Below are positions 11,153-64,000 of a DNA stretch of 64,000 nt, one piece after another. The first letter of the stretch is position 1, and each line of letters begins with the position of its first letter. The notes below the pieces were generated by a model. The model was not told the origin of the DNA and ran no database searches. It was given only the letters and a program-made list of their open reading frames with translations. Position numbers and translations under genes: made by a program. Origin of the DNA: Gemmobacter aquatilis (GTDB lineage: Bacteria; Pseudomonadota; Alphaproteobacteria; Rhodobacterales; Rhodobacteraceae); contig NZ_FOCE01000001.1 in the NCBI RefSeq assembly GCF_900110025.1, positions 310,001 to 374,000 of the forward strand. The letters run 5' to 3'.

Positions 11153-11738
11153 CGCGGCTTTCCTTCAGATAGGCGATCAGGGCCTGCACGGCGGCCTCGA
11201 CGGCAGCAAGGCCCAGCGTTTCGATGATATGCGTGGCGCGGGCGCGTTTGTCACGGTCGGGCATCTGGCGCGACAGGATCAGGGCGAATTGCGCCTCGGT
11301 CATGCCGGGACGGGCGAGGACGCGGGCGCGTTGCAGCGCGGGCGGGGCGGTGACGAGGAGGGTGGCGTCCATCTCGGCCTCCGATCCCTTTTCGAACAGC
11401 AGCGGAATGTCGAACACAGCGATGTCGGCGGTGCATTGGGCCAGGAAAGCGGCGCGATCTGCGGCGACCAGCGGGTGAACGAGGGATTCCAGCGCTGGCA
11501 GAAGCGCGGGGTCACGTTGCAGGGCGGATTTCAGCGTTTCACGTGAAACACCGGTCTCGGTGACCGCTTCGGGGCAAAGCGCGGCGATGGGGGCAACAGC
11601 CGCGCCGCCGGGAGCGTAGAGCCGATGCACCGCGGCATCGGCATCCCAGACCGGCAGGCCCTGCGCGCGGAAAAACCCGGCGGTGGTGGATTTGCCCATA
11701 CCGATGGAGCCGGTGAGGCCGAGGCGGAACGGAGTCAT
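11145..11738 (-). CDS. coaE: Dephospho-CoA kinase
   Basis: Last step of coenzyme A synthesis: phosphorylates dephospho-CoA at the 3' ribose hydroxyl. Walker [10 protein letters not shown] is at residues 10-18, [10 protein letters not shown] follows, and FDIPLLFE is the family's Walker B-like segment. 197 aa. Residues 64-68 read VSRET because this part of the gene is a parS site (11535-11550), so the coding sequence doubles as a ParB-binding site. Overlaps aroE by four bases (ATGA). Confidence 0.95.
11535..11550. promoter_or_regulatory. parS: parS site (15/16) inside coaE
   Basis: CGTTTCACGTGAAACA matches the parS consensus TGTTTCACGTGAAACA except for the first base. It lies about 1.6 kb left of the candidate origin and about 7.7 kb left of parA. 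The inner 14-base palindrome GTTTCACGTGAAAC is intact. Confidence 0.85.
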
Positions 11739-12574
11739 GCGCCGAGCACGGCTTTGCGCGTCGCCTCGTCCACCTCGGGGCGTTGGCCGAACCAGCGTTC
11801 AAAGCCGGGGGCGGCTTGATGCAGCAACATGCCCAGACCATCGACGACGGTGGCGCCCGCCTCTTCCGCCTCGATCAGGAACTGGGTTTTCAGCGGGGTA
11901 TAGACGATATCGGTGGCAAGCGTACCGGGGGCAAGCGCGTCGAGCGGGATGCGGAAATCGGGTTTGCCGGTCATCCCGAGGGCGGTGGTATTGACCACGG
12001 TCGCGGCGCCTTCCAGCATGTCGCCGGCATGAATCCAGTCATGCACGGTAACCTTGGCGCCGAAATCCGACCGGAACACCTCGGCCCGCGTGCGGGTGCG
12101 GTTGGCGAGCCGGATCTCTGGCACGCCAACCTCGATCAGCGCGGCCACCACGGCGCGGGCGGCGCCACCGGCACCGAAGACGGCGGCAGGGCCAGCCTGC
12201 GGGTTCCAGTTTGGCGCATGCTGGCGCAGGTTGGCGATGAAGCCCGCGCCATCCGTATTATCGGCATGGATCTTGCCATCCTTGCGGAAGATCAGCGTAT
12301 TTGCGGCCCCGATCAGCGCGGCGCGATCTGTCACCACATCGGCCAGTCGCAGCACGGTTTCCTTGTGCGGAATGGTGACATTGGCGCCGACGAAGCCCAT
12401 TTTCGGCAGCATCCGCAGCGCCTCGGCCAGATCGGCCTGCGCGATGTCCAGCGGGACGTAGTGGCCTTTGATGCCGTAACGCTTCAACCAAAAGCCATGC
12501 AGGGCGGGCGAGCGGCTATGCGCGATGGGCGAGCCGATGACACCGGCGAGCGGGATGCGCGGATGGTCGGTCAT
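11735..12574 (-). CDS. aroE: Shikimate dehydrogenase
   Basis: NADP-dependent reduction of 3-dehydroshikimate to shikimate in aromatic amino acid synthesis. The N-terminus has [13 protein letters not shown] (substrate binding), VTIPHKE with the catalytic Lys, NTDGAGF, and the nucleotide-binding GAGGAARAV. The C-terminus has [10 protein letters not shown]. 279 aa, normal length. Overlaps coaE and maf by four bases at each end, so these genes are translationally coupled. Confidence 0.96.
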
Positions 12575-13182
12575 GTGGCGATAAATCCTCGAAGTTCCAG
12601 ATAGCCGAGCAACGGCAGAAGCGGCAGGCCCAAGACGGTAAAGTAATCGCCTTCGACGCGGGTGAAAAGGCGCACGCCTTCTTCTTCCAGCTTATAGGCG
12701 CCGACGGAATGGCGGATACTATCCCAGTTGCGGGCGATATAGCTGTCGAGCCAAGCCTCCGAGAAGTCGCGCATCGTCAGATCGGCGCGGCCGACATGAC
12801 GCCAGACGGGTTCGCCAGCGTCATAGAGCACAAGGGCAGAGAGCAGGCGATGCGTCTGGCCGCGCAGGGCGCAAAGCTGGGTGCGCGCCTCCTCTGGCGT
12901 TTCGGGTTTGGCCCAGACGCGGCGGTCAAATTCCAGCACCTGATCGCAGCCGAGCACCAGCGCCTCGGGGTTGCGGTCTGCGATCTTGCGGGCCTTCATT
13001 TCGGCCAGGGTATCGGCAATGTCGCGGGGATGGGCGCCCTCAGCCTCCAGCGCGCGGCGGATGGTTTCCTCGTCGATCCGCGCAGCGTGGGCGGTCACGT
13101 CGAGCGCTGCCGCGCGCAGCAGCGCAAGCCGGGTGGCAGAGGCGGAAGCAAGCAGAAGCGGGCGGTTGGGTATGGGGGTCAC
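12571..13182 (-). CDS. maf: Maf family nucleotide pyrophosphatase
   Basis: Hydrolyses modified or non-canonical nucleoside triphosphates. Family signatures are [14 protein letters not shown] at the start, GCDQVLEFD, and AYKLEEEG near the C-terminus. I chose GTG 13182, giving 203 residues that start right before the first conserved strand; an ATG at 13227 would add 15 residues unlike the family and extend into the non-coding region. First gene of the leftward block; its start abuts the candidate replication origin, and a DnaA-box-like site begins three bases upstream of it. Confidence 0.92.
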
Positions 13183-13587
13183 TCTGTGGAAAATCCCGTT
13201 TTGTTCCTGACGCCCATTTCTGGGCAAGTCGGGGTGCAGAGGAGAGGGGACCGTTGGAAGGCCGACTTGTCAAGATGAGCGCGACTGTTATCCACCTGTG
13301 AGAAAGGCGACAAGCCGGGTCGGGAAAAATGTGCCATCCACAGGTCGTGGAAAACTTGTCCCGGATCGGTGGGAAAGAGAACAGGGCGAAAGAACGCTGG
13401 AATCCTTTTGGAAAACCACGAAAAGACCGGATCGGACCAAACTGCCCACGACAACTTATCCACGGTGCGCGGGATGTGGGGAACTTCGTGGGGGAAAGTG
13501 GAAATCCTGTTATCCCTAGCCCCTACTGCATCATTCTCTTTTCTTTCTCTTTCTTTAAGAAGAAGAAGATCCAAACGGAGATCGGTG
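13183..13587. other. Candidate chromosomal replication origin (oriC)
   Basis: 405 bases without a credible gene between divergent maf and hemJ. DnaA-box-like sites against TTATCCACA: 13288-13296 TTATCCACC and 13456-13464 TTATCCACG (+, 8/9); 13185-13193 TGTGGAAAA (-, 8/9); 13334-13342 CCATCCACA (+, 7/9); 13346-13354 CGTGGAAAA and 13475-13483 TGTGGGGAA (-, 7/9); 13510-13518 TTATCCCTA (+, 7/9). A pyrimidine/AT-rich tract at 13530-13575 next to the last boxes would serve as the unwinding element. One GAATC (CcrM-type GANTC) lies at 13400-13404. Genes run away on both sides and parS sites plus parAB are close. Alphaproteobacterial origins are known beside hem genes and this conserved block. Function is inferred. 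Confidence 0.72.
13530..13575. other. AT/pyrimidine-rich tract, candidate DNA-unwinding element
   Basis: A run of CTTTTCTTTCTCTTTCTTTAA-type sequence turning into purine-rich AAGAAGAAGAAG, in a window that is otherwise strongly GC-rich. It lies between the cluster of DnaA-box-like sites and the hemJ ribosome site, the position expected for the duplex-opening region of a bacterial origin. Confidence 0.5.
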
Positions 13588-16797: not shown

Positions 16798-18675
16798 ATG
16801 TTTCACGTGAAACATTTCGATGTCATTGTGATTGGTGCGGGCCACGCGGGCTGCGAGGCGGCTGCAGCTTCGGCACGGATGGGGGCGGCAACGCTTCTGG
16901 TGACGCTGCGGCGGCGCGATATCGGTACGATGTCTTGCAACCCAGCGATTGGCGGCCTGGGCAAGGGCCATCTGGTGCGCGAGATTGATGCGCTGGACGG
17001 CGTGATGGGCCAGGTTGCCGACCGGGCGGGGATTCAGTTCCGCCTGTTGAACAGGCGCAAGGGGCCAGCGGTTCAGGGGCCGCGCACACAGGCGGACCGG
17101 GCGCTTTACCGTGCCGAGATGCAGGTTGCGCTGGCGGCGCAGGCCGGGCTGGAGATTCTGGAGGCCGAGGTCAGCGATCTGGTTCAGGACGGTGCGAGGG
17201 TTGTCGGGGTTCGTCTGTCAGATGGCAGCGAGATTCGCGCCGGAGCGGTGATTCTGACGGCAGGCACTTTCCTGAACGGCATTATCCATATCGGGGATGT
17301 GCGGCACAGTGCCGGGCGGATGGGGGACAAACCGTCGATTGCGCTGGCGCAACGGCTTGCAAGCTTTGATCTGGCGCGGGGGCGGCTGAAAACCGGCACG
17401 CCGCCGCGGCTGGATGGGACGACAATTGCCTGGGAAAAGCTGGACCGGCAGTTGGGCGACGATGAGCCAACGATGTTTTCTTTCCTGAACAAGCGGCCTT
17501 TTGTGCGCCAAATCGCTTGCGGTATCACCCATACCAACCCGCGTACCCATGACATCATCCGGCAGAACCTGTCGCGCTCGGCGATGTATGGCGGGCATAT
17601 CGAGGGGGTCGGCCCGCGGTACTGCCCCTCGATCGAAGATAAAGTTGTGCGCTTCGCTGACAAGGACAGCCATCAGGTGTTTCTGGAGCCGGAGGGGTTG
17701 GAGGACAGCACGGTCTATCCCAACGGAATTTCGAGCTCTCTGCCGGTTGAAGTGCAAGAGGCCTATGTGCGGTCGATTGAAGGGTTGGAGGATGTGCGCA
17801 TCCTGCAGCCCGCTTATGCGATCGAATATGACTATTTCGATCCGCGTGGTTTGCGCCCGACGTTGGAAAGCAAATCGGTGCCGGGGCTGTATTTTGCCGG
17901 TCAGATCAATGGGACGACGGGCTATGAAGAGGCTGCGGCGCAGGGTCTGGTTGCCGGGCTGAACGCAGCCCGGGCGGTGCAAGAAGCGGATCCGGTGATC
18001 TTTTCGCGTGCGTCGAGCTATATCGGCGTCATGGTGGATGATTTGCTGAGCTATGGCGTGACAGAGCCGTATCGCATGTTCACCTCGCGCGCGGAGTTCC
18101 GTCTTTCGATTCGCGCGGACAATGCGGATCAGCGGCTGACCGAAGAAGGGATTCGTATTGGTTGCGTCGGGGAAGTGCGGGCTCAGATCTTTGCTGAAAA
18201 GATGATGAAGCTTGACCGTGCGAAAACTGCGCTGGATGCCCTTCGATTGACCCCGAAAGAAGCCGGAGAGAGCGGGGTGGTGGTCAGCAAGGACAGCGGA
18301 CGGCGATCGGTACTGGAACTGCTGGCTTTTCCCGATGCCAGCGTTGAAGCCTTCGCCGGGTGTTGTGTCGAGTTCGATGCGCTGGATGTGGATTTGCGCG
18401 CGCAGATTCGCACCGATGCGATCTATGCTCAATTTGCGGACCGCCAGAAAGCGGATGCGGCAGCGATTCGCCGGGATGAGGCGATGGAAATTCCGGTGGA
18501 TTTCGATTTTGCGGCGCTTTCCGGTCTGTCGGGTGAGTTGACGCAGAAGTTGCAGCGCGCGCGCCCTGCCAACCTCGCACAAGCAAGCCGGATCGAGGGG
18601 ATGACACCGGCCGCGCTGGTGCTGATTCTGGCGCGGTTGCGCCGGGGGCTCGGCCAGAAGGCGGTTGGCGCATGA
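16798..18675 (+). CDS. mnmG: tRNA uridine-5-carboxymethylaminomethyl(34) synthesis protein MnmG
   Basis: FAD-dependent partner of MnmE. FAD motif [10 protein letters not shown] at residues 13-22, [13 protein letters not shown]-like segment (here [11 protein letters not shown]), and [13 protein letters not shown]. 625 aa. ATG 16798 yields MFHVKH; this odd start is the translation of a perfect parS site (16799-16814) that overlaps the start codon. A GTG at 16792 is also possible. Similar MFHVKH starts occur on other Rhodobacteraceae MnmG proteins, so the parS-start fusion appears conserved. Overlaps rsmG by four bases. Confidence 0.96.
16799..16814. promoter_or_regulatory. parS: parS site (16/16) over the mnmG start codon
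   Basis: Perfect palindrome TGTTTCACGTGAAACA. It starts at the second base of the mnmG ATG, so ParB binding here would cover the translation-start region. About 3.2 kb right of the candidate origin. Confidence 0.93.
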
Positions 18676-19286
18676 TGGCGGGAGATCTGCCGTTGGATGT
18701 TTCACGTGAAACACTGGCAAAGCTAGAGATCTATGTCGAAATGCTGCGCAAGTGGAATGTGGCGATCAATCTGGTCGCCAAATCCACGCTGGAGGATTTG
18801 TGGCAGCGCCACATTGTTGATTCCGCGCAATTGGCGGAGCATTTTGGCGATGTGACCGGAACCTGGCTGGATCTGGGCAGCGGTGGTGGTTTGCCAGGCC
18901 TGGTTCTTGCGATCATCGCGCAGGGGCAGGGCCGGGATCTGCATTTCCATCTGGTGGAATCCGATCTGCGCAAGGCGACCTTTCTGCGGCAGGTCGCGCA
19001 GCGGCTTGAGTTGCCGGTAACAGTTTCAGCGGTGCGGATCGAGTCGCTGGCGCCGCAGAATGCGGATGTCATCTCGGCGCGTGCGCTTGCGCCATTGAAG
19101 GTGCTGTGCAGCCATGCGGCCCGGCATATGGCGGCGGACGGGTTTGCCATTTTCCCAAAAGGCAGCCATGCTGCGGCGGAAATTGACGAGGCGCGTGCAA
19201 TCTGGGATTTCACGGTCGAGACATATCCCAGCCTTACCAATGCTGATGCCGAAGTGATCAAAGTGAAGAATATCCGCCATGTCTGA
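18672..19286 (+). CDS. rsmG: 16S rRNA (guanine(527)-N7)-methyltransferase RsmG
   Basis: SAM-dependent methyltransferase for G527 of 16S rRNA; loss is known to give low-level streptomycin resistance. SAM-binding [10 protein letters not shown] at residues 67-76; [18 protein letters not shown] is the typical adenine-binding stretch. 204 aa. Residues 10-14 read VSRET because of the embedded parS site at 18698-18713. Starts inside the mnmG stop (ATGATGG) and overlaps parA by eight bases, forming a gidA-gidB-parA-parB operon. Confidence 0.95.
18698..18713. promoter_or_regulatory. parS: parS site (16/16) inside rsmG
   Basis: Perfect TGTTTCACGTGAAACA in the first codons of rsmG, 566 bases upstream of the parA start. 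ParB bound here could repress the downstream parAB genes as well as mark the centromere. Confidence 0.93.
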
Positions 19287-20103
19287 TCCCACCCGCCCGC
19301 GCCAGCCCACCATCATTGCCGTCACGAACCAGAAGGGCGGTGTGGGCAAGACCACCACTGCGATCAATCTTGGGGCAGGATTGGCAGAAATGGGGGCGCG
19401 TGTTCTGCTTGTGGATCTGGATCCGCAGGGCAATGCCTCCACCGGCCTTGGGGTAGATGTCTCGCAGCGGGATCTGACGAGCTATGATGTGCTGCTGGAA
19501 GACGTGGCGATCACCGACGCGATTCAGCAGACTCTGATCCAGAATCTGTTGATCTGCCCGGCAAATGCCGATCTGGCCTCGGCCGACATCGAACTTGTGT
19601 CAAACGAGAAGCGCAGCTTCTTGCTGCATGATGCGTTGCGGCAGCGTGAAATTGACGGATTGCAGCTGGATTTCATCCTGCTGGACTGTCCGCCTTCGCT
19701 GAGCTTGTTGACCGTGAATGCCCTTTGCGCCAGCCATTCGGTGCTGATCCCGTTGCAAAGCGAGTTCTTTGCGCTGGAGGGCCTGTCGCAACTGATGCTG
19801 ACCATTCGCAAGGTGCGCGAATCCGCCAACCCGCAGTTGCGGATCGAGGGGGTGGTGTTGACCATGTATGACGGGCGCAACAACCTGTCGCTTCAGGTTG
19901 AAAAAGATGTGCGCGAAACGCTGGGCGATCTGGTGTTTGCCACAGTGATTCCGCGCAATGTGCGGGTCAGCGAGGCGCCGTCTTATGCCATGCCGGTGCT
20001 GACCTATGACAGCGCGTCCAAGGGAAGCGAGGCCTATCGGGCCCTGGCGCGCGAAATCGCGGCGCATCATGGAATGGCGGAACGCGCCGGAAAAGAGAGC
20101 TGA
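19279..20103 (+). CDS. parA: Chromosome-partitioning ATPase ParA
   Basis: Deviant-Walker ATPase that binds the nucleoid and pulls ParB-parS complexes apart after replication. Deviant Walker A KGGVGKT at residues 19-25, LLVDLDPQGNAS, and LDCPPSLSLLT (Walker B). 274 aa. The start lies inside the end of rsmG, and parB starts two bases after its stop. The order gidA-gidB-parA-parB is the chromosomal, not plasmid, arrangement. Confidence 0.97.
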   Translation: MSDPTRPRQPTIIAVTNQKGGVGKTTTAINLGAGLAEMGARVLLVDLDPQGNASTGLGVDVSQRDLTSYDVLLEDVAITDAIQQTLIQNLLICPANADLASADIELVSNEKRSFLLHDALRQREIDGLQLDFILLDCPPSLSLLTVNALCASHSVLIPLQSEFFALEGLSQLMLTIRKVRESANPQLRIEGVVLTMYDGRNNLSLQVEKDVRETLGDLVFATVIPRNVRVSEAPSYAMPVLTYDSASKGSEAYRALAREIAAHHGMAERAGKES

Positions 20104-56109: not shown

Positions 56110-57381
56110 TCAGAGCCGCAGGCCAGCCAGAGGCGCCGCACCGCCGCGCCGCGACAGCATGGTCGGGATACCCAGTTCCTGCCGGAACTTGGTGACGGTG
56201 CGGCGCGCAAGCGGCTTGCCTTCGCGCGCCAGGGCTGTGGCCAAAGCAGCATCGCTGAGCGGAGCTGCGGGGCTTTCGGCGGCGATGATCTGGCGCAGGC
56301 GGTGGCGGATCGCATCCGATGAGGGCGCCGCCACAAGATCGCGGGCGGCCAGAGGGGCCGCGTCGAAAAAGCTGCACAGGGTGCGCATCCCGTGTGGCGT
56401 GGCGATCAGCAGATGGCGCGAAACCCGGCTGATGGTGCTGCCATGCAGGCCCAGAACTGCGGCAACCTCGGCCTGCCGCAGCGCGATCAGCGCACCCGGC
56501 CCTTCTTCAAGGAACGCCTCTTGCCGGCGCAGCACCTCGGTTGCAACGCTCAACACGGTGCGATTGCGGCGTTCCAGCACATTGGCCAGCCATTCCGCCT
56601 CGGCCCGCGCGGCGCGCAGCTTGGCGTCGGCTTGCGTCGTGCTGCGGGGCGGCAGGCTGATGGCAGGCAGGGTGGCGCGGTTCAGCTCGATCCTCCAGCC
56701 CTCGGCGCCCCGCGTCACCAGCAGATCAGGTTCGCGCAGTGGCTGGGTGTCGCCGCCAAACTGCGCGCCCGGCTTCGGGTCCATGCGGCGGATGCGGCCC
56801 AGGCATAGCTGAACCTCTTCGGGGGGCAGGCCGGTCGCATCGGCAACCGCGCGCAATCCGCCACTGGCCAGCAGCGGCAGACGATCCAGAACGGCTGCCA
56901 TGGCCGGGGTCAGTTGCCCCCGTTCGCTTGCCTGCAGCGCCAGACATTCGCGCAGATCGCGGGCAAAAAGCCCTGTCGGCTCTACCGTTTGCAGGCGGGT
57001 CAGCAGGGCACGGGCCTCGGGCTGGCTGCGCCCGGCTGCCTGCGCGATGTCTGACAGCGGGCGGTCCAGCCAGCCATTGGCATCCAGCGCCTCGACAAAG
57101 GCCATGGCAAAACGCAACGTGGCAGGATCGGAAATCATCAGGCGGATCTGCGCCAGCACATGTTCCTGCAGGCCCGATGCCGCCTGCGGCTGATCATCTT
57201 CAAAGCCGAGCGGCGCGGCACCCATCGGCATCCGCAGCCGGATCAACGGGTTCGATTCGGCGCGGCGCTGCAGATGGGCCTGCAACCCCTCGTTGGTCAG
57301 TTGCAGCAAGCTGATGGCCTGCAACTGCCACGCAGAAAGCGTCTGGCGCAGCGAATGGGTCTGTCTTGAGCTTAGCGCCAT
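56110..57381 (-). CDS. rpoN: RNA polymerase sigma-54 factor
   Basis: Alternative sigma factor for -24/-12 promoters, requiring an AAA+ activator. 423 aa: the Gln-rich region I (SAWQLQAISLLQL) is near the start, core-binding region in the middle, and the RpoN box ARRTVTKFRQ at residues 392-401 (consensus ARRTVAKYRE) near the end. ATG 57381 with GGAGA is preferred; ATG 57393 would add METC. It is not followed by hpf/ptsN genes as in many proteobacteria. A sigma-54-like promoter for a monooxygenase lies 3.9 kb away. Confidence 0.95.
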   Translation of the reverse strand: MALSSRQTHSLRQTLSAWQLQAISLLQLTNEGLQAHLQRRAESNPLIRLRMPMGAAPLGFEDDQPQAASGLQEHVLAQIRLMISDPATLRFAMAFVEALDANGWLDRPLSDIAQAAGRSQPEARALLTRLQTVEPTGLFARDLRECLALQASERGQLTPAMAAVLDRLPLLASGGLRAVADATGLPPEEVQLCLGRIRRMDPKPGAQFGGDTQPLREPDLLVTRGAEGWRIELNRATLPAISLPPRSTTQADAKLRAARAEAEWLANVLERRNRTVLSVATEVLRRQEAFLEEGPGALIALRQAEVAAVLGLHGSTISRVSRHLLIATPHGMRTLCSFFDAAPLAARDLVAAPSSDAIRHRLRQIIAAESPAAPLSDAALATALAREGKPLARRTVTKFRQELGIPTMLSRRGGAAPLAGLRL

Positions 57382-60829: not shown

Positions 60830-60963
60830 TGCGCGGCCCTTCGGCTTGCCTGACCGGACCAATGCCGGACTGATGTCATCCTACCATCCCAAACGCGCCC
60901 AAAGAAACGGCGAAAATTTCATAACTTGCTGATTTTCAATATGAAATATGAAAACATGTGAAA

Positions 60964-61001
60964 CAGATGTAACGTTATTTAACGCTGGTCCGTTACACCT
61001 G
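60964..61001. promoter_or_regulatory. Distal inverted repeat, candidate activator site
   Basis: CAGATGTAACG (60964-60974) and CGTTACACCTG (60991-61001) are inverted copies matching at 10 of 11 positions with a 16-base spacer. About 340-370 bases upstream of the predicted transcription start. Confidence 0.5.
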
Positions 61002-61129
61002 TTGCCAAGGATTACATGCCGCGTTGCCGCGCCAATTTGTCGCGGTGCGGCAATGGTCCGGCGCGGCGAATCGCAGCCGGGATGGCCGTATCAGACCGAA
61101 CAGGCACCAATTGTCTCAACTCTGCACGG

Positions 61130-61175
61130 TTTTACACCTGAGACGCGTTACAGCTGTAACACATCGCAACACCTG
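61130..61175. promoter_or_regulatory. Proximal repeat cluster, candidate enhancer for a sigma-54 activator
   Basis: TTTTACACCTG (61130-61140), the perfect 14-base palindrome GTTACAGCTGTAAC (61147-61160), and ACACCTG (61169-61175). All carry the TTACANCTG or ACACCTG core also found at 60991-61001. Centre about 180 bases upstream of the predicted start, a normal enhancer distance for sigma-54 promoters. Confidence 0.58.
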
Positions 61176-61245
61176 ACCGGTTTGCCATCTTCGCTGCAGC
61201 CGGAAAGCCGCGTTTCAGGCGCATATTTTTTGATTCCTTCAATTT

Positions 61246-61258
61246 CAATGGGTTGATG
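61246..61258 (-). promoter_or_regulatory. IHF-like site
   Basis: CAATGGGTTGATG matches the reverse of WATCAANNNNTTR at all but the last position, and has an AT-rich flank (ATATTTTTTGATT). It lies between the repeat cluster and the -24/-12 element, where IHF bending would bring activator to polymerase. Confidence 0.45.
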
Positions 61259-61305
61259 AAGATTTGCCCCATGGCCCCGCATTATTTGCACGGCCAACCG
61301 GCCCG

Positions 61306-61323
61306 TTGGCATCGCCTCTGCTT
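61306..61323 (+). promoter_or_regulatory. Sigma-54 (-24/-12) promoter of the monooxygenase operon
   Basis: TTGGCATCGCCTCTGCTT: GG at 61308-61309 and GC at 61320-61321 separated by exactly ten bases, fitting TTGGCAC-N5-TTGCT except two positions. Predicted start near 61333, giving a leader of about 258 bases before the hydroxylase gene. Confidence 0.68.
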
Positions 61324-61390
61324 GTATCCCTGACAGAAGAAGCCGGGCTCCGATGCAGGGCAGGCGCAAGAACGAAGGATGGGAGGAGAC

Positions 61391-61594
61391 ATGAGGGCGA
61401 CCATAACCGCCGCAACGCCAGAAGCGTGCCGGTCGGCTGCGGGATTTTCGCTCTTTTCCCCCCGGAACCTTTGCCGTGAACCGCAGACCCGGCCCGCCCC
61501 TGTGGCTGCCGGCCCATCCCCGGGTGGCTCCATTCCGCCCACCGGCATCGGGCAACCGCCCTTGTCGTCCAACTCAAGGAGGCTCATGGCATGA
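61391..61594 (+). CDS. 67-codon leader open frame coupled to the monooxygenase gene
   Basis: ATG 61391 has a near-perfect GGGAGGAG ribosome site, and the stop TGA (61592-61594) overlaps the hydroxylase ATG as ATGA, the hallmark of translational coupling. The product is Pro/Arg/Ala-rich with no domain seen; three Cys or fewer and no signal peptide. It may be a short protein, or a leader whose translation opens the next gene's start. No homolog is recalled; composition is like untranslated GC-rich sequence, so it could be fortuitous. Confidence 0.42.
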   Translation: MRATITAATPEACRSAAGFSLFSPRNLCREPQTRPAPVAAGPSPGGSIPPTGIGQPPLSSNSRRLMA

Positions 61595-63258
61595 CGTCTT
61601 TGACGCTCAACAAGATCACGTCCCAGCGCGGTATTTCCGTTGGTGAGGCTACGAAGAAGATTTCGGACCTCGGCTGGAACCCGACCTATGTTCAGGAAGC
61701 GGCAACCTTCCCGACCGATTACAAGATCAACAAGGCCCCGCGCGACCCGATGAAACAGGTTCTGCGCTCCTACTTCCCGATGCAGGAAGAAAAGGACAAC
61801 CGGGTTTACGGCGCACTCGACGCCGCGCTGCGCGGCGACATGTTCCGCAACGTGCAGCCGCGCTGGGTGGAATGGATGAAGCTGTTCCTGGCGATCATTC
61901 CGTTCCCGGAAATCTCGGCGGCGCGCTCGATGGCCATGGTGGCGCGCATCGCCCCCGGCGAAGACCTGCGCACCGGCTTCACCATGCAGATGGTCGATGA
62001 ATTCCGCCACTCCACCATTCAGATGAACCTGAAGAAGTGGTACATGGAAAACTACATCGACCCGGCGGGCTTCGACATTACCGAAGAAGCGTTCGGCAAG
62101 TGCTATGCCACCACCATCGGCCGTCAGTTCGGCGAAGGCTTCATCACCGGCGACGTGATGACCTCTGCCTGCATGTATCTGACCGTGGTTGCCGAAACCG
62201 CCTTCACCAACACGCTGTTCGTGGCCATGCCGTCCGAAGCCGCCCGCAACGGCGACTATGCGCTGCCCACCGTGTTCCTGTCGGTGCAGTCGGATGAAAG
62301 CCGCCACATCGGCAACGGCCACTCGCTGCTGATGGCCGCGCTGAAAGAGCCGGAAAACCACCTGCTTCTGGAACGCGACCTGCGTTATGCGTTCTGGCAG
62401 AACCACGCCATCGTCGATGCCGCCATCGGCACGCTGATCGAATACGGCACCACCAACCGCGACAAGGAAAAGGAATCCTACGCGGAAATGTGGCACCGCT
62501 GGATCTTTGAAGACTACTACCGCACCTACATGCTGCCGCTGGAAAAATACGGCATCAAGGTGCACCACGACGACGTGCAGGAAGCCTGGAACCGCATCAC
62601 CAAGAAGAACTACGTCCACAAGGTGGCCCAGTTCTTTGCCGTGGGCTGGCCGGTGAACTTCTGGCGGATCGAAGCCCAGACCGACAAGGACTTCGAATGG
62701 TTCGAGCACAAGTATCCGGGCTGGTATGCCGAATTCGGCGAGTTCTGGAAATGGTATGCGAAACTGTCGAAGCCGGGTCAGAAGGTCATCACCTTCAACG
62801 AGGAAGTCGGCTACGTCTATCCGCATCGCTGCTGGTCGTGCCTTGTGCCCTGCCTCATCCGCGAAGACATCGTGACCGACACGATCGACGGTCAGGTGCA
62901 CACCTTCGCCCATGAGCTGGACCGCTGGACCGCCGTCGAGGCCTTCTCGAGCGAGTATCAGGGCCGTCCGACCCCGGCGATGGGCAAGTTCTCGGGCAAG
63001 CGTGAATGGGAAACCCTGTATCACGGCTGGGATCTGGCCGATGCGATCAAGGATCTGAACTTTGTCCGTGAAGACGGCAAGACGCTGGTCCCGCAACCGC
63101 ACCTGCGCTTCGATAACAAGGACATGTGGACGCTCGACGACGTGCGCGGCCACACCCTGATGTCGCCGCTGACCCTGCTGCGCGAAATGTCGCCCGAGGC
63201 GCGCGAAGCGCATCTGGCCGAATACCGCCGCGGCTTCACCATCAATCCCTGCAACTGA
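61591..63258 (+). CDS. prmA: Propane-monooxygenase-type di-iron hydroxylase, alpha subunit
   Basis: Large subunit of a soluble di-iron monooxygenase that inserts oxygen into short alkanes, ketones or phenol. 555 aa. Iron ligands read directly: Glu107 (FPEIS), Glu137 and His140 (DEFRH), Glu202 (VAETAF), Glu236 and His239 (DESRH); their spacing (30, 3, 62, 34, 3) equals that of methane monooxygenase MmoX. The sequence (DPMKQVLRSYFPMQEEKDNRVYGA, GDVMTSACMYLTVVAE) and a C-terminal PHRCWSCLVPC Cys cluster match PrmA/MimA (group 5), not MmoX. AAGGAGG precedes ATG 61591. Expected partners reductase, beta and coupling protein follow, beginning at 63362. Confidence 0.93.
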   Translation: MTSLTLNKITSQRGISVGEATKKISDLGWNPTYVQEAATFPTDYKINKAPRDPMKQVLRSYFPMQEEKDNRVYGALDAALRGDMFRNVQPRWVEWMKLFLAIIPFPEISAARSMAMVARIAPGEDLRTGFTMQMVDEFRHSTIQMNLKKWYMENYIDPAGFDITEEAFGKCYATTIGRQFGEGFITGDVMTSACMYLTVVAETAFTNTLFVAMPSEAARNGDYALPTVFLSVQSDESRHIGNGHSLLMAALKEPENHLLLERDLRYAFWQNHAIVDAAIGTLIEYGTTNRDKEKESYAEMWHRWIFEDYYRTYMLPLEKYGIKVHHDDVQEAWNRITKKNYVHKVAQFFAVGWPVNFWRIEAQTDKDFEWFEHKYPGWYAEFGEFWKWYAKLSKPGQKVITFNEEVGYVYPHRCWSCLVPCLIREDIVTDTIDGQVHTFAHELDRWTAVEAFSSEYQGRPTPAMGKFSGKREWETLYHGWDLADAIKDLNFVREDGKTLVPQPHLRFDNKDMWTLDDVRGHTLMSPLTLLREMSPEAREAHLAEYRRGFTINPCN

Positions 63259-63361: not shown

Positions 63362-64000
63362 ATGGGCGAGGTTTACAACGTAAGGCTGGAGCCTGTCGGC
63401 GTGGAATTCGAGGTGAACGAGAACGAGACCGTTCTCGATGCCGCGTTCCGCCAGGGCATCTCGCTGCCGCATGGCTGCAAGGAGGGTCAGTGTTCGGCCT
63501 GCAAATGCGTGCTGATCGACGGCGAGGTGGAGATGCTGAAATATTCCACCTTCGCGCTCAACGAAAGTGATCGCGACGGCGGGCAGATTCTGATGTGCCG
63601 GGCGCTGCCCTATGACAACCTGACGATCGACCTCTTGAACTATGATGAAGAGGTTCTGTCGAAGTCGATCCCCGTCAAGGAATTCGCAGGCCGGATCACC
63701 GATTTCCAAAAGCTGACGCATGACATTCGCGGCGTGCAGATCGAGCTGGACGCTCCGCTGAAATTCTGGGCGGGCCAGTATGTCGATATCACAGTTACCA
63801 CGGAAGAAGGGGAGACGATCACGCGTTCGTTCTCCATGGCAAATCCGCCGAGCGAAACCCAAAAGCTCTCCTTCATCATCAAAAAGTACCCCGACGGAAA
63901 ATTCTCCAACGAGCTCGACAGCGGCGGAATCCGCGCCGGAGCCTCCGTCCGGGTCAACGGGCCCTTCGGGATGTGCTTCCGGCGGGAAGACCGGCAAGGG
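63362..64000 (+). CDS. prmB: Propane-monooxygenase reductase subunit, 3' end beyond window
   Basis: NADH-acceptor reductase that feeds electrons to the di-iron hydroxylase. The open frame runs to the window end (213 codons seen; family about 340). N-terminal plant-type [2Fe-2S] ferredoxin domain with ligands Cys39, Cys44, Cys47 and Cys79 (GCKEGQCSAC...LMCRA), then the FAD-binding barrel (about 105-205) with WAGQYVDI and the flavin motif RSFSMANPP at 155-163. The NAD domain is cut off. ATG 63362 follows GGGAGG. Order alpha-reductase is that of prmABCD/mimABCD. Confidence 0.93.
   Translation, partial: MGEVYNVRLEPVGVEFEVNENETVLDAAFRQGISLPHGCKEGQCSACKCVLIDGEVEMLKYSTFALNESDRDGGQILMCRALPYDNLTIDLLNYDEEVLSKSIPVKEFAGRITDFQKLTHDIRGVQIELDAPLKFWAGQYVDITVTTEEGETITRSFSMANPPSETQKLSFIIKKYPDGKFSNELDSGGIRAGASVRVNGPFGMCFRREDRQG

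Follow-up and report, generated by a model that had tools for sequence, protein, structure and literature searches.

A probable sigma-54 switch with a linked RpoN paralogue and a candidate structured leader RNA at a MimABCD-like monooxygenase operon of Gemmobacter aquatilis

How a monooxygenase operon is switched on, and with which sigma factor and activator, is the question raised by one end of the 64,000-nucleotide stretch of Gemmobacter aquatilis DNA analysed here (the window, whose numbering is used throughout). The first operon gene encodes a MimA-like hydroxylase large subunit of the monooxygenase (61591–63258, plus strand, PF02332). The reductase gene (plus strand) occupies 63362–64000 and continues past the window to 64420. 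Beyond the window, the operon encodes the beta subunit, the coupling protein, an amidohydrolase, an FeS-assembly-P protein, a GroEL-like protein and a Zn alcohol dehydrogenase (to 70647). No NCBIfam match was obtained for the large subunit, and the sole NCBIfam match of the coupling protein, to the MimD equivalog, scored 101.1 bits against a cut-off of 150. Hence, this propane-type monooxygenase operon is called MimABCD-like and was not counted as a propane 2-monooxygenase MimABCD. On plasmid pAMI4 of Paracoccus aminophilus, an IS5-like element (ISPam1, L269:15434–16363) splits the operon between the reductase and beta subunit genes. The mimA-like gene on G021:C11 (L102, L106) is in two pieces with in-frame stops, and this genome had no sigma-54 match. 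The answer developed below, which is considered probable, is a dedicated sigma-54 switch made up of a downstream activator, a TTACA-NN-TGTAA enhancer, a linked RpoN and a structured leader.

The preliminary description placed an enhancer and a −24/−12 promoter upstream of the monooxygenase gene, and all the motifs it named were recovered at the positions it gave. The distal inverted pair, CAGATGTAACG (60964–60974) and CGTTACACCTG (60991–61001), occurs once each in the window, and its members score 9.9 and 6.8 bits by the comparative matrix described below. A similar distal pair lies upstream at −633 and −601 in Gemmobacter fulvus (L117). The proximal enhancer (61130–61175; like the distal half, assigned to neither strand) holds adjacent TTACA-type sites at 61130–61145 (11.5 bits) and 61146–61161 (19.0 bits), and the latter contains the perfect palindrome GTTACAGCTGTAAC (61147–61160), with one occurrence per strand since it is palindromic. 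The further copies of ACACCTG were located at 60995, 61134 and 61169, the third occupying 61169–61175. The genome motif scan that had been proposed gave no second site for GTTACAGCTGTAAC in the 3.96 Mb genome with one mismatch allowed. For GTTACANNTGTAAC with at most one mismatch, the sole match in the genome was GTTACAGCTGTAAC at 61147–61160 (the reversed-pattern control gave three per strand), and TTACANNTGTAA had a single exact site in the whole genome.

The predicted promoter TTGGCAT-N6-TGCTT (61306–61323, plus strand) has TTGGCAT at 61306 and TGCTT at 61319, with GG at 61308–61309, GC at 61320–61321, the exact GG-N10-GC spacing and a predicted start at 61333. It was the only site scoring at least 20 between 60863 and 61590. 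The box alone is unremarkable, with 28 sites of at least 20 on both strands of the 64 kb window, and the lone −24/−12 box was dropped as evidence because of these equally good sites. The bare count of GG..GC was also dropped because best-of-region picks give GG..GC in 37% of shuffles. Within 130 nt upstream of the box, the best IHF-like match has 8 of 9 fixed positions (61246–61258, minus strand); it was placed by hand. Eight or nine of the nine positions were matched in the 85 nt before the box in 35 of 81 loci (window plus the best 80 of 533 relatives) versus 16.5% of shuffles. This suggests a mild excess of IHF-like matches across loci, which does not in itself establish the one site at 61246–61258.

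The enhancer and −24/−12 reading was supported by conservation in relatives. The comparison set consisted of the window and the best 80 of 533 relatives of the first gene (n = 81; protein 91–97% identical). In each locus, the best box within 180–370 bp before the gene was scored against a maximum of 23.5, with dinucleotide shuffles as the control. The best box scored at least 20 in 74 of these 81 loci versus 2.5% of shuffles, and GG..GC was intact in 79 of the 81 best boxes versus 37% of shuffled best picks. The distance from the box to the first of two conserved leader words, described below, was 37–52 nt in 79 of the 80 word-bearing loci of the set and 92 nt in the remaining one. CGTTACA occurred in 61 of the 81 upstream regions, and any 7-mer of one shuffled set occurred in at most 10. 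The enhancer matrix was seeded by the window palindrome and refined on the same loci, which makes the comparison with shuffles partly circular; with this matrix, a site above 7 bits was found in 71 of the 81 regions (window plus the best 80 of 533) versus 14% of shuffles. The refined motif was TTACA-NN-TGTAA, a better form of the enhancer motif than TTACANCTG. The range 70–110 bp before the box was the most populated, with 68 of 147 sites by histogram (same 81 loci); the main site of the window lies farther out, about 153 bp before its box. No site above 7 bits was found in 10 of the 81 loci, so that a different sequence may be recognised by some activators. A second sigma-54-like word of the type TGGAAATGGCTTTGCA was observed about 610–730 bp before mimA in many rhizobial loci (L027, L029–L033, L070, L072 and others).

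A distant set of ten loci (L115, L116, L118–L125; first gene at most 88% identical), among them Bradyrhizobium, Caballeronia, Azospirillum, Skermanella, Methylocella and Rhodococcus, was also inspected. A box of at least 22 was kept in eight of the ten, the exceptions being L116 and Rhodococcus. Neither leader word was found in any of the ten, and none had a good enhancer site, the single match above 7 bits (L125) falling after its box.

The activator had been expected outside the window, downstream or elsewhere, and it was found 9 kb downstream, after the alcohol dehydrogenase gene and on the opposite strand (70726–72738 in window numbering, minus strand; genome C10:380726–382738). In this 670-aa protein, a GAF domain is combined with Sigma54_activat and Fis HTH domains, and the GAFTGA motif is intact (residue 432); these features place it among the GAF-type bacterial enhancer-binding proteins (AcoR/MmoR/BmoR-like). 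It is termed MimR-like by resemblance only. The TTACA motif might instead be bound by a regulator other than this adjacent GAF-AAA+ activator, for example a repressor. Such a regulator would agree with the result that no site of at least 8.5 bits lies near the activator's own start, and with the weak sites of some activator-bearing loci (e.g., L036 and L075). It agrees less well with the arrangement of the region, which is the usual enhancer layout with paired half-sites upstream of a sigma-54 box and an activator gene present. Moreover, the motif was absent in four distant loci with activators 41–46% identical (L118, L119, L120 and L122), a point that is offset by L043, which keeps a 19-bit site with an activator only 43% identical. 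A different regulator is considered unlikely, and the adjacent activator is the preferred partner of the TTACA motif.

The choice of sigma factor was explored through a paralogous rpoN gene located at 56110–57381 (minus strand; start at 57381 judged from domain content). The AID, CBD and DBD domains of its product (PF00309, PF04963 and PF04552) all scored above the Pfam cut-off, identifying it as an RpoN. The genome holds three RpoNs, the other two being 37–40% identical to this one; therefore, the "loss of RpoN" invoked in the preliminary description must specify which gene is meant. Flanks of up to 10 kb on each side of the loci were examined, some loci ending at contig ends. Among the best 80 of 533 relatives, an rpoN lies near the operon in 37 of the 41 Rhodobacterales loci (window not counted), and the same holds for the window and for two loci of unassigned order. 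A linked rpoN was found in none of the 36 untruncated Hyphomicrobiales loci of the same set, in which one further locus was truncated. In one common layout, rpoN is encoded on the opposite strand, 2.9–5 kb upstream (window, Gemmobacter and Paracoccus); in the other, it immediately precedes the control region in the same orientation (many roseobacters). A few loci differ from both layouts.

The RpoN tree comprised 105 rows, of which 50 were linked and 55 were others (35 from searches, mostly best-scoring, and 20 lower-scoring). L126 and L132 were left out as duplicates, and L140, L143 and L144 as partial matches. In the quick tree, the 50 linked RpoNs and one other (L256) formed one group (SH-aLRT 96). 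In the careful tree, the linked set required three changes and not one, and a single clade of linked RpoNs was not rejected (AU p 0.51 with L256 and 0.39 without it). The promoter consensus GGCAC..TTGC was kept in 5 of 40 linked versus 33 of 40 unlinked loci (Fisher p 2.6e-10), a difference that, like the linkage, is confounded with phylogeny because the linked loci are Rhodobacterales or unassigned. Of the four unlinked Rhodobacterales loci, the three whose upstream flanks are complete (Limibaculum and two Amaricoccus) keep the consensus, and the fourth, L019 on a short contig, does not. The linkage and sequence comparisons suggest that the rpoN at 56110–57381 probably belongs to the control system of the operon.

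The distribution of sigma-54 was evaluated in 390 genomes of the order. The first gene had a match in 16 genomes, in 12 of them at full length and at least 90% identity. Sigma-54 was found in 100 of the 390 genomes, namely in all of these 12 and in 88 of the 378 without a full-length first gene; 10 operon-less genomes compared alongside contained no full-length rpoN. Sigma-54 was linked to the operon in 11 of the 12 operon-bearing genomes, and in 8 of the 12 it was the only full-length sigma-54, an extra partial match of 31–42 residues (E ~1e-4 to 1e-3) being discounted in two of the eight, G327 and G083. The activators of these eight genomes were checked for 35 of 43 AAA+ activator-type matches, the other eight matches being partial (~60 residues). 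Within this scope, each of the eight genomes has one GAFTGA activator, and it is the MimR-like one (48–78% identical). The remaining AAA+ matches included three with GAFAGA and one with GAFPGA, and the rest were without the motif. The MimR-like activator lies within ~16 kb of the operon in seven of the eight genomes; in the eighth (G255), activator and operon share a 311-kb contig matching plasmid p2 of Gemmobacter fulvus.

In Paracoccus aminophilus JCM 7686, the only rpoN is carried by plasmid pAMI4 and is listed by the authors under nitrogen metabolism in the accessible part of their report (PMC3925955). On pAMI4, this rpoN lies 2.9 kb before the operon and the activator at its opposite end, and the control region holds the box, the enhancer sites and the leader words. 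Plasmid p-SCP4 of Ponticoccus alexandrii has the other layout and weaker enhancer sites (9.4 bits). For Cereibacter sphaeroides, the portion of PMC11999139 that was available assigns functions to RpoN1, RpoN2 and RpoN3 and gives none for RpoN4. Of the four RpoNs of the Cereibacter-type genome G094, one lies in a flagellar cluster and another at 3.4 kb from the first operon gene; beyond this operon, a GAF-type activator is encoded. The linked RpoN of G094 shares 92% identity with its Cereibacter johrii counterpart (L016). Its linkage to the operon points to a possible role for RpoN4 of C. sphaeroides, on the assumption that G094 represents this species and that its linked gene is RpoN4.

The same sigma-54 switch could also be served by either of the other RpoNs of the genome, with the linked rpoN doing another job. 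The presence of three RpoNs in the source genome is compatible with this alternative, as is the occurrence of this operon type with no rpoN linked to it in Hyphomicrobiales and in 4 of the 41 Rhodobacterales loci (best 80 of 533); furthermore, close to the RpoN on contig C22 there is a GAF-type activator that shares 42% identity with that of the operon. Against it stand the eight operon-bearing genomes in which no other full-length sigma-54 is present, the grouping of the linked RpoNs and the drift of promoters where rpoN is linked. The RpoN copies studied in C. sphaeroides are, moreover, specialised according to the available text of PMC11999139. Service by another RpoN is considered unlikely. 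Linkage, tree and promoter sequence indicate that the sigma factor used by the operon is most likely the linked RpoN at 56110–57381.

Several other sigma-54 arrangements were noticed. The second RpoN of the source genome (L147, G000:C22:213000–232999, at about 18146–19636) lies ~5 kb from a GAF-type sigma-54 activator (11308–13233, minus strand), together with thiolase, AMP-binding and CobW genes, and is perhaps part of another sigma-54/activator pair. L252 and L253 come from two genomes in which the first operon gene had no match; these RpoN-bearing stretches encode a DUF5927/Branch-domain protein and perhaps represent another sigma-54-linked set. A gene beside rpoN on plasmid p2 of G. fulvus (L117:3117–4886), annotated as a sigma-54-interacting regulator, was rejected as the activator because it has an AAA-lid match only, with neither Sigma54_activat nor GAFTGA; it looks degenerate. 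Elsewhere in the window, the palindrome (T/C)GTTTCACGTGAAACA, which we take to be parS-like, occurs in four copies at 11535, 16799, 18698 and 22575, and these copies suggest a chromosome-partition region.

The predicted transcript begins with a 258-nt 5′ leader (61333–61590, plus strand). Its parts on the same strand are a hairpin, P1, at about 61342–61365, and the two leader words, AAGAACGAAGG at 61368–61378 and CCTTTGCC at 61468–61475; a covariance model matches 61334–61481. AAGAACGAAGG was exact in 80 and CCTTTGCC in 78 of the 81 loci (window plus the best 80 of 533). Both words are absent from L043, in which a strong enhancer site and the box are present; thus, leader and promoter are separable. 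Six of the 81 leaders were left out of alignment A1: L016 and L078 are short, L021 and L025 lack the second word, L043 lacks both and L042 has an insert. The covariance model was built from 15 of the loci. It gave one match in each of 79 of the 81 sources and none elsewhere in 1.73 Mb, and a single match, with no second copy, in the source genome. In 398 genomes of the phylum, seven matched, the source genome and three others strongly, and all three of these matches lie beside mimA. The three weak matches (L112–L114, 24–26 bits) were dismissed as chance, their surroundings of ~3.1 kb containing no operon gene and the matches lacking the invariant word. A search of Rfam 15 with 60860–61700 (E up to 10) gave no credible match; snoU82P and cHP were far below the cut-offs and were taken as chance.

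The P1 hairpin precedes the first leader word, and its sequence varies while the pairing holds. Over 79 model-aligned sequences, in an alignment that was itself fitted to the model, 94.6% of the cells pair, and the double-change cells numbered 127 versus a shuffled mean of 33, with 0 of 500 shuffles as high. The CGAAGG of AAGAACGAAGG is able to pair with the CCTTTG of CCTTTGCC (P2), and RNAfold gave this pairing a probability above 0.3 in 64 of 78 leaders. Both leader words are invariant, so that covariation cannot test the P2 helix. Only the invariant helix, and no covariation, was found by RNAalifold on a plain MAFFT alignment of 75 leaders. This outcome was ascribed to the variable hairpin being misaligned; the evidence for the hairpin comes from alignments A2 and A3 and from an alignment-free swap test.

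The leader might not be a regulatory RNA at all, its invariant words being protein-binding DNA or its sequence being coding. The near-invariance of the two words, whose pairing shows no covariation, could be read in this way, and the number of pairs with double changes was not above chance (7 versus 5.9 in shuffles, 122 of 500 as high). The window's own hairpin folds weakly (z −0.2), its values for the three leader parts being −0.2, −2.5 and −0.5. In addition, reading by hand revealed an ATG after GGAGGAG that opens a frame at 61391–61594, overlapping the mimA start by ATGA. Set against these points are the double-change cells of P1 and the swap test, in which the hairpin halves of 30 representatives preferred their own partner over those of others (p 8e-7); for the window itself, 6 of 29 foreign partners paired equally well. 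The folding of the three leader parts was also stronger than that of dinucleotide shuffles (mean z −2.0, −2.5 and −2.2; n = 77). The spacing of the two words ranges over 32–111 nt with all three frames represented, and hence there is no shared reading frame. A leader peptide was rejected on account of differences in spacing and frame among the loci, and the frame at 61391–61594 is for the same reason probably not coding. A leader that is not a regulatory RNA is judged improbable.

It is through the covarying P1 hairpin that the leader classes as a structured cis-regulatory RNA. This conserved RNA matches no catalogued family and makes a strong candidate for a new one; the pathway concerned likely consumes short-chain alkanes or ketones. 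Simple sequestration of the ribosome-binding site was unsupported, the site being no more paired than in shuffled leaders (40 loci). The leader may act as a riboswitch, as the target of an sRNA or protein, or as a stability element.

From the parts, their positions, conservation, covariation and linkage, we infer the binding, looping, choice of RpoN, inducer and leader function of the following scheme. The activator encoded downstream of the operon would sense a metabolite via its GAF region and would bind the TTACA-NN-TGTAA sites ~150–345 bp upstream of the −24 element. The bound activator would loop to RNA polymerase carrying sigma-54, and its GAFTGA loop would open the promoter at 61306–61323, with transcription starting near 61333. 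The sigma-54 used in most Rhodobacterales loci, the window included, would be the paralogue beside the operon (here 56110–57381), with which the promoter would have drifted. The transcript would begin with the structured leader, which may impose a second, post-transcriptional control.

Sigma-54 is usually viewed as one factor with many activators. The paralogue described here seems to serve a single promoter together with a single activator, and its gene stays next to them. A single-promoter sigma-54 would be a natural, ready-made orthogonal transcription system, and the linked RpoN leads directly to a hypothesis on what RpoN4 does in C. sphaeroides. A bolder reading, offered tentatively and with clearly less than even confidence, is that of a self-contained and sometimes plasmid-borne cassette, with its own sigma-54 (the sole one in many hosts) for one promoter, a leader belonging to a new metabolite- or sRNA-sensing RNA family, and C. 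sphaeroides RpoN4 as a member. Were this reading true, sigma-54 would be part of one operon rather than a global factor.

Known systems share some of these features. The mycobacterial MimR-regulated mimABCD is presumably of the same operon type, with a MimD-like coupling protein, a GroEL-like gene and an alcohol dehydrogenase; the likeness drawn here is one of operon type, and the MimD score is 101 bits, under the cut-off of 150. Cis-regulatory RNAs and riboswitches in Rfam are likewise conserved, covarying 5′ leaders tied to one gene, but none of them matched credibly here. The control of sMMO in Methylosinus trichosporium likewise involves a di-iron monooxygenase operon, a −24/−12 promoter, an activator of its own and a GroEL-like gene, and rpoN, mmoR and mmoG are named together in the title of Stafford 2003 on soluble methane monooxygenase (cited in the accessible text of PMC5874634). 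However, sMMO belongs to another monooxygenase group, and that text describes no TTACA enhancer, leader or single-operon sigma-54. In Thauera butanivorans, BmoR is an alcohol-responsive sigma-54 activator of an alkane monooxygenase promoter (PBMO), which also has an inverted repeat upstream and a possible IHF region; the likeness drawn here is one of layout, and there the response stayed wild-type-like when the inverted repeat was deleted (PMC8899819, as far as available). The sigma-54 paralogues RpoN1–RpoN4 of C. sphaeroides are also specialised and have activators of their own, and the −11 position affects specificity; RpoN4 is without a function in the available part of that account (PMC11999139), whereas here the linked RpoN adjoins the operon in Cereibacter-type genomes (L016 and G094). 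A second rpoN is known on the symbiosis island of Mesorhizobium loti (PMC3538637, available part). Given this second rpoN and the rpoN/mmoR/mmoG precedent, a linked sigma-54 is not a wholly new kind. Neither a structured leader for the operon nor a sigma-54 dedicated to it was found in the accessible portion of the open literature, subscription literature lying mostly outside this scope, and such silence is weak evidence of novelty. A sigma-54 control region by itself is of a known kind; it gains from the combination of promoter, activator and an apparently private sigma-54 into one set and from the candidate RNA element, and much of the machinery that controls the operon seems, in its lineage, to travel with it.
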